Source: Methanothermobacter sp. (GTDB taxonomy: Archaea; Methanobacteriota; Methanobacteria; Methanobacteriales; DSM-23052). Taken from it: a DNA stretch of 64,000 bases. The translations under genes were made by a program, and so were the position numbers. Positions 56,371-60,399 of the stretch are shown piece by piece. The stretch lies in NCBI GenBank assembly GCA_030055615.1, contig JASFYN010000001.1, positions 389,267-453,266 on the forward strand, given 5' to 3'. The notes beneath the pieces were generated by a model. The model worked only from the letters and a program-made list of their open reading frames with translations, had not been told where the DNA came from and searched no databases. Each line of letters starts with the position of its first letter. The first letter of the stretch is position 1.

Positions 56371-57180
56371 TCATCCTTTCATTATCCTATCTGGTTTTCT
56401 TCCATGATATTCTATGTCCCCAAGGTTCAAGGTTTTTCTGAAAGGTTTCTCTTCCGCCCTTTCCTCATCTATATGGGCTATTAACCCTGGTAATCTCCCT
56501 ATCATGAATATGCCTGTCCCAATTTCCCAATGGAATCCCAAATCTGACAATATTGCCGCGTTAGCACCATCAATATTCATATTAATATTCTTCAACCGAT
56601 TTAAAAGCTTTTCTATTTCCAATGCTAACTGTACATGTTTCCCTATGCATTTATATTCTTTCGCTAACTCCAATATCCTAGCAGCCCTGGGATCTCTGCT
56701 ATGGTACCTATGGCCAAAACCAGGTATCTTCTCATCCTTTTCTAAATAATCATAGACGATTTCCCTTGCAAGTTGAGAAACTTCACCATCATCTTTTATA
56801 GTTTCTTGGAGGAGTTTCATACATTCTTGGATAGCCCCGGCATGTTCCTTCCCAAAGGCTAAAAGTCCAGCTGCTGCAGATGCATGTAAAGGAGAACCTG
56901 TGGATGCTGCTAGACGAGCAATCTGCGTGCTAGGGGGGGTAACACCATGATCACAGAAAGATACGAGTATGGCGTCAAGCATCTTGGATTCATCCTTGGA
57001 AGGTAAATTACCCCTCAATAATAAGAAGACAATATCAGCAAATGAAACATTACCAATCAAATCTTCCTGGAAATATCCGCGCGTAACTATGAAATTCTCT
57101 TCAATCCAACTAATACTGGTCTTCCAGCGAGAGACATTAATATCAAATATTTTTTCAAGCGATTTTTTCTCTATTGCCAT
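56371..57180 (-). CDS. Short citrate-synthase-like protein
   Basis: 269 residues versus about 380 for citrate synthase, matching the short citryl-CoA lyase / CS-like C-terminal form. FGKEHAGAIQ and PGFGHRYHSRDPRA carry the two conserved histidines, and VQLALEIEKLL and GANAAILSDLGFHWEIGTG (two helices) follow; IAHIDEERAE may hold the catalytic acid. ATG 57180 has GAGGTG six bases upstream. Last gene of the four-gene operon with the fumarase-like, U32-like and PrpD-like genes. It may make or cleave a citrate analogue. Confidence 0.8.
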   Translation of the reverse strand: MAIEKKSLEKIFDINVSRWKTSISWIEENFIVTRGYFQEDLIGNVSFADIVFLLLRGNLPSKDESKMLDAILVSFCDHGVTPPSTQIARLAASTGSPLHASAAAGLLAFGKEHAGAIQECMKLLQETIKDDGEVSQLAREIVYDYLEKDEKIPGFGHRYHSRDPRAARILELAKEYKCIGKHVQLALEIEKLLNRLKNINMNIDGANAAILSDLGFHWEIGTGIFMIGRLPGLIAHIDEERAEEKPFRKTLNLGDIEYHGRKPDRIMKG

Positions 57181-57190
57181 TGGTAACACC

Positions 57191-58033
57191 TCATAATGTT
57201 ATGGTCGCCCTTCTTGGCTCTGCACAGCAAGAGAGCCTCATAGAAACTATCCTAACTCCACTGGCTCTTTGGGGTCCGATTTTAACAAAAGATCCCAAGG
57301 CTGTTACGGATCCTCCGAGTCCTAGACTACCCACACCAGTTCTATTAAGAGCTTCTGTTAAATATTCTTCGATTTTTGATTGTTTGTCAAGGTTCCCATT
57401 GGCCATAGCCTTAAGCATGAGAGAAGTGGCCTCAAAATGAGTTCTTCCAATGCCAATAGTTGGGATGCAAGGGGTGCATCCTAACATTGGAGTCTCTGTT
57501 TTCATCCATGTTAGAACTTCTTCAAATAGTTTTCTGTTATCATGACGATGGAAAACTCTATATGTACGGGCGCGTATTTCAGGCCCTCCACCTAACATTA
57601 GAATATGGATTTTTATGGTGTCCTCGTTTATTGTGTCTATTATAAAAGATGGAGGTATTACCATTGAAGGATCTTCATATAGGCCTTTGCTCTGCTCTAT
57701 ACGTTGAATTTCATCTCCTTTCGCTGCCATGGGCCTTCCGGGCAATTCTTTTAATCCTTCTTTTATCCCTTTTTTGATTTGGACTAAGAGTTCATTGGGT
57801 GGTGTGATTTTTTCTCCTATTTCGAGGATAACATGTGGGATTCCGGTGTCGTCACAGAGTGGTCTTTTTTCTTTTCTTGCTATTTTTTCATTTTCTAGGA
57901 TTAGTTTGAGCACCCAAGCTGCATTTTCATCTTCTTCTATTCTAAGGGCTCTTTTGTATGCTCTTCTGATGTCACTTGTATAACTTGTACTGGCTTTTAT
58001 GAGGGCTTTCTTCACTCTTGTGACAAGGTTCAT
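57191..58033 (-). CDS. Fumarase / tartrate dehydratase alpha-domain protein, divergent
   Basis: 280-residue homologue of the class I fumarase N-terminal (Fe-S) domain. RPLCDDTGIPHV provides the first cluster cysteine (Cys60) and LGCTPCIPTIGIGRTHFEA two more near 188-191. The canonical GGGSEN loop is changed to LGGGPEIRARTYR, so the substrate is probably not fumarate. No beta-subunit gene is adjacent. ATGA overlap with the upstream U32-like gene; ten bases to the citrate-synthase-like start. Confidence 0.8.
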   Translation of the reverse strand: MNLVTRVKKALIKASTSYTSDIRRAYKRALRIEEDENAAWVLKLILENEKIARKEKRPLCDDTGIPHVILEIGEKITPPNELLVQIKKGIKEGLKELPGRPMAAKGDEIQRIEQSKGLYEDPSMVIPPSFIIDTINEDTIKIHILMLGGGPEIRARTYRVFHRHDNRKLFEEVLTWMKTETPMLGCTPCIPTIGIGRTHFEATSLMLKAMANGNLDKQSKIEEYLTEALNRTGVGSLGLGGSVTALGSFVKIGPQRASGVRIVSMRLSCCAEPRRATITL

Positions 58034-58935
58034 TTAATCACCGGTATTGCGAGGTCTGCACTGCCCTTTGGGGAGGCTTGTGCCTCTGGGTAATATTTTT
58101 CTATCATTGATTGTACGAGTTTTACTTGTCTTATTCTTTCTTTTGCTTCTGTTTTTGTGGTGTCCCACCCATGTTTTTTCGCGATTGAGCCTCCTGTTTT
58201 GAGGTAGACTGGGGCGGCATAACGTATCATATCTGGCACTTCATAGTGTCTTATAAAACCACCGGAGGATTCTGGATTCTCTGTATGTAAATCTATCGGT
58301 ATTTTTATGGTGTTTCTGATGGAAGCTAGCATGGGTATTTGGAGGTCTCTCACGGGGTTGAATGAGTCTGCTCCAATCTTTTCTAATAGTAGGGCGGATG
58401 CTGGGTTGCCATGTCCGCAATGTGCCGAAACTTTAAAGTGAAGATCCGTGGGGAGGTGGCCTGATTTTCTCATTTTGTTGAGCACCCATAGCATCCCTTC
58501 GTCATATACTACTATGCCTTTTACTCCTAGGCTGGTGGCTCTCTTAACATCTTCTAGGGCGTATAATAGGTTTTCGTAGCCCCGAAGACGATATCCTATC
58601 CTCGAACCTTCCTTTGTTTTCGCGGTTGCACTTGTATCATAGGTTGCCCTGGGTCCTACGCTTAAGAATAGTTCTAGTTTGGCATCTGCTGCGATTTCGA
58701 CCATTTCTTGGATTTCTTGGTCTGTGAGTAACATTATACCCTTTGTTTGGGTTACTCTGTGGATTGTTATGTCATATTCTTCAAGGGCGTTTATGAGGGC
58801 TCTGAGGGCTGAAGGATTTTGTATTCCTGGGACTTCGAAGCGGTATTGTGAACCGTCGTTAAATGTTTTTTCTGATTCCTTGAGGGGGTAACCGCTCTTT
58901 ATGCCGAGATTTTCTAGGAATTTTCTATTATTCAT
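58030..58935 (-). CDS. U32-peptidase-like TIM-barrel protein
   Basis: 301 residues resembling the N-terminal barrel of the U32 family but without the classic U32 cysteine signature. Visible features are LFLSVGPRATYD, VKGIVVYDEGMLWVLN, FKVSAHCGHGNPASALLLE, GADSFNPVRDLQIPML and IDLHTENPESSGG. The His/Cys-rich HCGHGN and the acidic HTEN could bind a metal and a carboxylate substrate. ATGA overlaps on both sides place it in the prpD operon. Confidence 0.75.
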   Translation of the reverse strand: MNNRKFLENLGIKSGYPLKESEKTFNDGSQYRFEVPGIQNPSALRALINALEEYDITIHRVTQTKGIMLLTDQEIQEMVEIAADAKLELFLSVGPRATYDTSATAKTKEGSRIGYRLRGYENLLYALEDVKRATSLGVKGIVVYDEGMLWVLNKMRKSGHLPTDLHFKVSAHCGHGNPASALLLEKIGADSFNPVRDLQIPMLASIRNTIKIPIDLHTENPESSGGFIRHYEVPDMIRYAAPVYLKTGGSIAKKHGWDTTKTEAKERIRQVKLVQSMIEKYYPEAQASPKGSADLAIPVIK

Positions 58936-60257
58936 GACGGTTTCCTCCTTAGGCCTAAGTTGTTCATTAAGTCGTTTATGGTGGTTGATTCCATTTCATC
59001 TATGATCTTTAATTTTTTGGTTTCGTATCTACTGTTAAGGATTTTAAACTTTTTCAGGATATCTTCTCTTGTAAAAGGGTGTTCTGGCTCTCCTTGGGCT
59101 AATATACTTGAAGATTCTAAATTCTTATTTTTCAATTTTAAAATGACCTTTGAGGGTCTTTTTTCCGGATAAAGAGAGTCCATTTTCCTGTCCGTTTCTA
59201 TTTTGATTTTCTGGGCGAGTTTTCGGGCGTTTTTGGATCTTTTCATGTTCTCTAATCGCAGATCCCCGTTTAATAGGAATAGTGCAAGTGAGAATGGTAA
59301 ACTCTGTCTTATAGATTCTATGTTCTCTGGTTTGTAATTGTCATGTTCTGCTGCTATCTTATATGTTTTGACGATTATTTCATCCACAATATCTTCATCG
59401 AGGGATTTTATTTTTAGAGAATGGAGTATCTTTGCAGCTGAATCTATGGTGGAATGGAGATGCCTGCAAATAGGATATTTCTTCATATAAACTTGTTGGA
59501 TATGGAACTTGCCCAGTTCCAATTTAGTATCATGTTTTGGGCTCATGGCGTTCAGGAGGCCCTCATCACCTTCTATTATGGTATCTGCTCCAGTGAATCC
59601 TTCGCATGCGAGCAGGGCGGAAATTATGCCAGATTGGGCCGCTCTACCTGCATGTAAATGTTTTCCCATGCTACCTTTATGATCAGATTCAAGAAGCCCT
59701 GCAGCTTGAGTACCTGCCAATCCTATACAATTCAATGTTTGCTTTTTATCTAAATTGAGGATCTTTGCACTAGCTGCGGCTGCTCCGATTGTTCCACATG
59801 TACCTGTGGAATGGAATCCTCTGTTACGATGATATGGGTTTATCATGACCCCTAGAGCTATACATATCTCATAGCCGATTATAATAGCTGTGAGAAATTT
59901 GTCCCCTGTGGCGTTTTTTTCTTCTGCTAATGCGAGTGCTGCTGGTATAACAGATGCTCCGGGGTGTAGATGGGCTGCCCTGTGGCCATCGTCCAAGTCG
60001 AGGCTATGAGCAAATATGCCATTAATTAGGCTAGCGTTTAATGGGTCCCCACAACCATGACCTATAATAGTCGCTTTACCATGGGATATAAAGGGTTCTA
60101 GGGCTTTCAATGCTAAAAGTCCGCTTTTTTCTTTTGATCCTCTTAATGAAACTCCGAGAAAGTCTAGAAAACATAATCTGGCCTTTTCTATAACTTCTAG
60201 GGGTATGTCATCATATTCTATCGATACTATAAAATCAGCGATTTCCCTTGTTATCAT
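58932..60257 (-). CDS. MmgE/PrpD family protein
   Basis: 441-residue member of the 2-methylcitrate dehydratase / cis-aconitate decarboxylase family. Typical segments are ALKALEPFISHGKATIIG, HSLDLDDGHRAAHLHPGASVIPAAL (begins FAHSLDLDDGH), GCGDPLNASLINGI and KYPICRHLHSTIDS. No Fe-S cluster is expected. First gene of the operon; no ribosome binding site, and a TATA box about 25-45 bases upstream suggests a leaderless mRNA. Substrate unknown. Confidence 0.87.
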   Translation of the reverse strand: MITREIADFIVSIEYDDIPLEVIEKARLCFLDFLGVSLRGSKEKSGLLALKALEPFISHGKATIIGHGCGDPLNASLINGIFAHSLDLDDGHRAAHLHPGASVIPAALALAEEKNATGDKFLTAIIIGYEICIALGVMINPYHRNRGFHSTGTCGTIGAAAASAKILNLDKKQTLNCIGLAGTQAAGLLESDHKGSMGKHLHAGRAAQSGIISALLACEGFTGADTIIEGDEGLLNAMSPKHDTKLELGKFHIQQVYMKKYPICRHLHSTIDSAAKILHSLKIKSLDEDIVDEIIVKTYKIAAEHDNYKPENIESIRQSLPFSLALFLLNGDLRLENMKRSKNARKLAQKIKIETDRKMDSLYPEKRPSKVILKLKNKNLESSSILAQGEPEHPFTREDILKKFKILNSRYETKKLKIIDEMESTTINDLMNNLGLRRKPS

Positions 60258-60282
60258 TAAAAGGATGATATTCCAACCAGAC

Positions 60283-60304
60283 CCATATAAATATTATATA
60301 ATAT
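60283..60304 (-). promoter_or_regulatory. Candidate promoter of the prpD-like operon
   Basis: ATTATATAATATTTATATGG on the minus strand lies 26 bases upstream of the start. Initiation would fall close to the ATG at 60257, which lacks a Shine-Dalgarno, so the message is probably leaderless. Confidence 0.5.
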
Positions 60305-60399
60305 CCAAAGACGGGCTTTTCTGATTTATTCTTTTTCCAGGAGGAGACATTTTTTTGAAGGGTAGGGAAAAACTTATTTACAGTCCTCTAATTATCCTT

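Follow-up and report, generated by a model that had tools for sequence, protein, structure and literature searches.

We found that four minus-strand genes in a 64,000-nucleotide (nt) stretch of a Methanothermobacter sp. genome, hereafter the window, and a fifth gene elsewhere in the same genome form, we are confident, one pathway. The four constitute an operon encoding an MmgE/PrpD-family protein, a U32-like TIM-barrel protein, a class I fumarase-type alpha subunit (FUM) with an altered loop and a short citrate-synthase-like (CS-like) protein; the fifth encodes a divergent fumarase beta subunit and lies beside the methanofuran gene mfnA. The pathway likely makes an unusual polycarboxylic acid. 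This acid might be the methanofuran tail, hexane-1,3,4,6-tetracarboxylic acid (HTCA), the source of the 4,5,7-tricarboxyheptanoyl end in Methanobacteria, an identification to which we give somewhat less than an even chance. Methanofuran is the first C1 carrier of CO2-reducing methanogenesis, and to our knowledge no genes are assigned to its tetracarboxylic end; the analysis supplies five named candidate genes for it, a clear loss pattern (in Methanosphaera) and a proposed precursor set.

The host genome (1.49 Mb, 99% complete) carries the four open reading frames (ORFs) in the order PrpD-U32-FUM-CS from 60257 down to 56371. They belong to the families named in an earlier note on this window, although the U32 match stays below the Pfam cut-off:

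58932..60257, minus strand: MmgE/PrpD-family protein, 441 amino acids; first operon gene, dehydratase- or epimerase-type (PF03972, PF19305)
58030..58935, minus strand: U32-like TIM-barrel protein, 301 amino acids; proposed 2-oxoacid (pyruvate)-dependent C-C lyase/synthase (PF01136 below cut-off, AlphaFold model, invariant residues)
57191..58033, minus strand: class I fumarase-type alpha subunit with the altered loop GGGPEI, 280 amino acids (PF05681)
56371..57189, minus strand: short CS-like protein of the citryl-CoA-lyase type, 272 amino acids (NF004866; nearest solved structure 6hxp)
60258..60310, minus strand: probable promoter, judged from sequence; its TATA-like TTTATAT precedes the PrpD ATG by about 25-30 nt

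The ATGA overlaps claimed for all junctions occur at PrpD/U32 and U32/FUM but not between FUM and CS, where the gap is 1 nt with a GTG start or about 10 nt with the ATG at 57180, a conserved start candidate preceded by GAGGTG.

Linkage was surveyed in 152 genomes, 91 of them high-quality, from four families (f1-f4) and 20 genera that we read as the class Methanobacteria. The conserved linkage that the earlier note had set as its own check was borne out, the PrpD-U32-FUM-CS order being retained in loci from all four families while the flanks vary. In several genera the cluster is flanked by a TiaS-like gene on one side and by A-ATPase genes on the other, and the conservation of these outer neighbours would also fit four functionally unrelated genes held together merely by a stable A-ATPase chromosome region. 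We regard that explanation as barely credible, as the four genes stay linked where the A-ATPase flank (Methanothermus-like genome G001) or the TiaS flank (the window's genus) is gone, were lost jointly with the unlinked beta gene in Methanosphaera, and have homologues of three of their number that recluster in bacteria.

The loss is confined to one genus. U32-like and PrpD genes each occur in 78 of the 91 high-quality genomes and 19 of the 20 genera, usually in one cluster, and the 13 high-quality genomes without them match the 13 of genus g13. None of the 20 g13 genomes (G112-G131) holds a U32-like, PrpD or CS-like gene, and of fumarase subunits g13 has only a canonical alpha (26-32% identity to the operonic one) and, in the class-wide search, only a canonical beta (~33%), with neither the operonic alpha nor the divergent beta found. 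Genus g19, taken as Methanothermobacter, has the operon. Methanosphaera cannot make molybdopterin and hence cannot run formylmethanofuran dehydrogenase (PMC10658910, PMC9723798); because g13 is the sole genus lacking MoaC as a whole, it is presumably Methanosphaera, and we use that name below.

The earlier note had held that the fumarase-like protein lacks a beta partner, which proved incorrect. The window's genome has two Fumerase_C genes, one canonical and one divergent, and the divergent gene (L059:8734-9228), outside the window, overlaps the mfnA 3′ end. Nearly all genomes outside Methanosphaera, fragmentary metagenome-assembled genomes excepted, contain a strongly matching gene (48-100% identity). 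Of the 30 loci returned, 20, from families f1, f2 and f3, have it immediately downstream of mfnA and in the same orientation. The altered loop noted earlier, GGGPEI, is indeed present and is invariant in the methanogen alpha family. In methanogens and bacterial homologues alike, an alpha with GGGPEI or a close variant pairs with a beta carrying (A/G)PT[ST]SNK (GGGPEI/PTSSNK in the window's genome), whereas canonical alphas with G[GF]GSEN pair with betas carrying GPTTS[GT]RM. Canonical alpha (GFGSEN) and beta (GPTTSTRM) genes are encoded apart from the altered pair (L003:1196-2032; L057). The alpha-like protein matches PF05681 (Fumerase; 2e-54, 185 bits against a cut-off of 25) and retains the three Fe-S cysteines, C60, C185 and a C-terminal Cys aligning with the canonical ligands; it differs from true fumarate hydratase both in these loops (GGGSEN/GPTTSxRM in the canonical enzyme) and in falling short of the equivalog PRK06246 (124.5 against 276). 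Because of the matching altered motifs, the retained cysteines and the shared distribution, the operonic alpha and the mfnA-linked beta very probably form one enzyme with changed substrate specificity. An alpha working without a beta was rejected, since the divergent beta exists, is co-distributed and is motif-matched.

The remaining family assignments speak against the methylcitrate-type chemistry that had been suggested. On paper, the operon fills the roles of the methylcitrate cycle (PrpC, PrpD, aconitase, PrpB) with a CS-family protein, a PrpD-family protein, an Fe-S (de)hydratase and a TIM barrel. Its first protein clearly belongs to the PrpD family (PF03972 6e-75, PF19305 2e-26; N- and C-terminal domains 252 and 93 bits against a cut-off of 32), but its nearest solved relatives are Bacillus subtilis IRG1, iminodisuccinate epimerase and cis-aconitate decarboxylase; it matches iminodisuccinate epimerase at 6e-34 and true PrpD much more weakly, at 3e-5, and reaches neither PrpD equivalog (PRK09425, 35.9 against 575; PrpD_hiGCgrampos, 38.9 against 950). 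The CS-like protein has the citrate synthase C-terminal domain (Pfam, 9e-48) and the catalytic His/His/Asp of the fold (HAGA, GHR and NxDG positions aligned). It does not reach 2-methylcitrate synthase TIGR01800 (111 bits against 421) but exceeds the cut-off of the citryl-CoA lyase subfamily NF004866 (PRK06224; 377.8 against 245 bits), and its nearest solved structure is the Hydrogenobacter citryl-CoA lyase 6hxp (9e-65 over ~247 residues). That enzyme splits citryl-CoA in the reductive tricarboxylic acid cycle, whereas the CS-like gene shares its operon with the PrpD, U32-like and fumarase-like genes and, in some genera, has an orphan second copy. The hydratase is a class I fumarase-type enzyme, and the barrel, being U32-like, lies outside the isocitrate-lyase family: no Pfam match to methylisocitrate lyase (ICL/PEPM family) was found in the four proteins, and Foldseek returned generic barrels only (TM ~0.45). 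With the methylcitrate synthase, PrpD and fumarase equivalogs all scoring far below their cut-offs, the methylcitrate cycle was rejected. As a separate observation, the second CS-like gene (G000:C2:368219-369025; L002; L003:7220-8086) is 66% identical to the operon copy and adjoins phosphate-transport genes; two copies are likewise present in genera g16, g17 and g19.

The U32-like protein scores 14.1 bits against PF01136 (peptidase U32), under the cut-off of 22.4, and a PDB sequence search with its profile found no relative. Its AlphaFold model is a TIM barrel (pLDDT 86, three low-confidence loops) that Foldseek matches to generic TIM-barrel lyases, aldolases and metal barrels at TM ~0.45, with Mk0906 among the matches. 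It thus resembles the U32 family (peptidase U32, Mk0906, UbiU/V, RlhA) in fold and by a weak sequence match, yet has no invariant Cys and instead many invariant Arg, Lys, Asp, Glu and His residues, including K168, K246 and strand-end acidic residues. The previously noted HCGHGN and HTEN motifs are both present; in the methanogen family HTEN is invariant, and HCGHGN is largely retained with a variable Cys. A new active site, as had been proposed for these motifs, is plausible, and the invariant basic and acidic set is as expected for a polycarboxylate-binding C-C lyase. From the fold, the generic metal- and aldolase-barrel matches and the invariant residues, we infer that the protein may add or remove a pyruvate-type enolate.

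A related module occurs outside methanogens. Scanning the U32-like alignment against 84,980 species genomes gave 486 related loci, the best 80 of which were kept; these 80 include Clostridia at 62-66% identity besides Methanobacteria. Within one clostridial class, 11 of 393 evenly sampled genomes had a clear homologue. The U32-like protein represents an uncharacterised enzyme family common to methanogens and gut or other anaerobic Clostridia, often inside surface-glycan clusters. In the U32-like tree, methanogens form one clade (support 100) that is sister (94) to the clostridial types (a) and (b), with (b) nested in (a) and (c) outside. Type (a) loci are glycan clusters with flippase, glycosyltransferases, sugar aminotransferases, DegT and RmlA/RmlB or NeuABC-type genes; Tissierella and Eubacterium ruminantium are among the bacteria with a module-bearing glycan cluster. 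Their module comprises PrpD, the U32-like protein, altered FumA/FumB, a PF15617 C-C lyase and sometimes an ATP-grasp ligase, to which is added either a 2-hydroxyacid dehydrogenase (Ldh_2 or D-2-hydroxyacid type) or a phosphonopyruvate-decarboxylase-family enzyme (Ppd) plus an aldo/keto reductase. The Ppd replacement was seen in L197, L196, L124, L131 and L140, most of them with the reductase, and no phosphoenolpyruvate mutase was noticed among their listed ORFs. Type (b) (L199/L200) combines CitDEF, U32-like, altered FumAB and PrpD with a GlcD-type FAD oxidase, electron-transfer flavoprotein (ETF) and an iron-containing alcohol dehydrogenase. Type (c) has a more distant U32 (~50%) with canonical-motif FumAB, malic enzyme, PrpD and tricarboxylate-type transporters.

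The CS-like protein was not found in the bacterial genomes tested, which had ordinary citrate synthases only; PF15617 or CitDEF occupies its place in the clusters. All three alternative C-C lyases come from families that cleave or make citrate-type acids (from an acyl-CoA or acyl carrier protein thioester and a 2-oxoacid). The repeated occurrence of a 2-hydroxyacid dehydrogenase, or of a decarboxylase with a reductase, implies a 2-oxo acid at the other end of the pathway. Because the bacterial clusters hold citrate-type C-C lyases together with 2-oxo- and 2-hydroxyacid enzymes, the module probably interconverts acyl-CoA plus 2-oxoacid with a 2-oxo polycarboxylate, and the ETF-linked 2-hydroxyacid oxidase and CitDEF of type (b) suggest that the route may run backwards there. 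Altered FumAB should be mesaconase-like and convert citrate- or citramalate-type alcohols to 2-substituted fumarates and back. In glutamate fermentation, the citramalate/mesaconate branch likewise couples a FumAB-type Fe-S hydratase to a citrate-lyase-type C-C lyase, as in L199/L200, but the module adds PrpD, the U32-like barrel and the 2-oxo/2-hydroxyacid enzymes, and its alpha and beta substrate loops are altered. A literature search for work linking U32 and PrpD with fumarase and citrate lyase found nothing relevant.

These neighbourhoods also bear on a different chemistry, like that of iminodisuccinate metabolism, where an epimerase is followed by a lyase that releases fumarate. The U32-like protein would then act as a lyase on C-N or C-O bonds, the PrpD homologue would epimerise, and the polycarboxylate made or broken by the module would be amino- or ether-linked. 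The closer match of the PrpD homologue to iminodisuccinate epimerase than to true PrpD would suit it, as would the sister U32 group with canonical FumAB and malic enzyme, arranged as if fumarate were released. We nevertheless find it rather improbable: distant U32-like homologues have sugar-acid dehydratases and lactonases as neighbours and occupy the position of a keto-deoxy-acid aldolase, and we know of no N- or O-linked polycarboxylate in methanogens. These distant homologues are 39-42% identical and adjoin enolase-superfamily dehydratases and sugar ABC transporters on plasmids of Thermomicrobium roseum (L206) and Streptomyces nigrescens (L208), the latter also with an SMP-30 lactonase; the setting suggests a sugar-acid aldolase role, since a keto-deoxy-acid aldolase would be expected there. 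On an Enterobacter chuandaensis plasmid (L207, 7874-17942), a 34% homologue lies among genes for an aminotransferase, a nucleotidyltransferase and redox enzymes that contain iron, an arrangement resembling a cluster for small-molecule biosynthesis.

Returning to C-C chemistry, a C10 route can be drawn for the methanogens. First, the citryl-CoA-lyase-type CS-like enzyme would condense acetyl-CoA with a 2-oxoacid (2-oxoglutarate in methanogens) to form a citrate-type tertiary alcohol. The altered, mesaconase-like FumA-like/FumB-like Fe-S enzyme would dehydrate this to a 2-substituted fumarate of the homoaconitate type, to which the U32-like barrel would add a pyruvate-derived enolate, giving a 2-oxo tetracarboxylate. 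The PrpD-family enzyme would then dehydrate or epimerise one centre; later, enzymes from outside the operon would reduce the 2-oxo group, and the acid would be ligated to the glutamyl chain. Acetyl-CoA, 2-oxoglutarate and pyruvate together supply exactly 10 carbons and four carboxylates. The methanofuran of Methanobrevibacter smithii contains a 2-hydroxy variant of this acid, which the 2-oxo intermediate could explain. White reportedly carried out labelling work on the HTCA moiety; our literature search on HTCA biosynthesis found no open paper and no assigned genes.

Methanothermobacter methanofuran ends in an N-4,5,7-tricarboxyheptanoyl group, a C10 tetracarboxylic acid (PDB 5T61 ligand; PMC13397495). 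A 2011 inventory listed the methanofuran genes as largely missing (PMC3087415). MfnA-F make the APMF-Glu core, with MfnA and MfnD assembling its glutamyl-tyramine part, and five different side chains are known (PMC11365854); none of MfnA-F makes the tricarboxyheptanoyl end piece. Two observations point to methanofuran as the cofactor: the beta gene adjoins mfnA, and the genus that lost the module is the one unable to use formylmethanofuran dehydrogenase. An undescribed tricarboxylate-type pathway, possibly for a cofactor, thus remains the best reading of the operon, as first proposed, though it is neither a methylcitrate cycle nor devoid of a beta partner, and the mfnA link gives the cofactor a name.

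Several points weigh against this product. Methanosphaera retains MfnB and formylmethanofuran:tetrahydromethanopterin formyltransferase (FTR). On this ground we rejected the simple explanation that the operon disappeared because methanofuran did, and another tail must be assumed there. Clostridia, where methanofuran is not expected, carry the module in glycan clusters, which means that the acid is not exclusive to methanofuran. The beta gene of Methanobrevibacter (g10) loci is not beside mfnA, and MfnA may also supply beta-alanine. Methanogens make homocitrate and homoaconitate for coenzyme B via AksA/AksDE, so the first two steps would be a second route, and we know of no close precedent for the Michael-type step assigned to the U32-like protein. 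The complete scenario is accordingly doubtful in our view: a five-gene HTCA route with a new class of TIM-barrel enzyme, the U32-like protein, joining pyruvate enolate to a 2-substituted fumarate, and a module adopted by Clostridia for glycan acids and, with CitDEF, for their degradation.

Two other products were considered. Given the many bacterial homologues inside polysaccharide clusters with flippases, glycosyltransferases, DegT and RmlA/RmlB or NeuABC-type genes, the acid could serve a cell-surface glycan or other envelope component of Methanobacteria, with methanofuran not involved. This is unlikely, as the five methanogen genes are never near glycan genes, their neighbours being TiaS, A-ATPase and mfnA, and Methanosphaera lost the module despite an envelope of the same order-level type. 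Alternatively, the module could feed the synthesis of an amino acid such as isoleucine, made from 2-oxobutyrate by way of citramalate and mesaconate, and Methanosphaera would have lost it on account of taking up isoleucine. Mesaconase activity is within the range of class I fumarases, and citramalyl-CoA could be a product of citryl-CoA-lyase-type enzymes, yet methanogens already have the CimA/LeuBCD route. Methanosphaera stadtmanae does require isoleucine (PMC10658910). We nonetheless consider this use very unlikely, for it leaves no role for PrpD or the U32-like enzyme and accounts poorly for bacterial homologues in glycan or CitDEF clusters and a beta gene beside mfnA. A methanofuran tail acid remains our preferred, if tentative, product.

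Some further features of these loci were recorded. Each Methanosphaera genome has two FTR genes, despite the absence of moaC from the genus. In some Methanobacteriaceae genera (L040, L041, L042 and L045), extra ORFs are inserted between PrpD and U32, two of which, in L041, resemble DNA cytosine methyltransferases. An Rfam scan of the operon region gave no match, and sigma-70 promoter and terminator scans stayed at chance level. The TATA-like element before PrpD recurs in the same-genus loci L005-L007, making a leaderless or short-leader promoter plausible.

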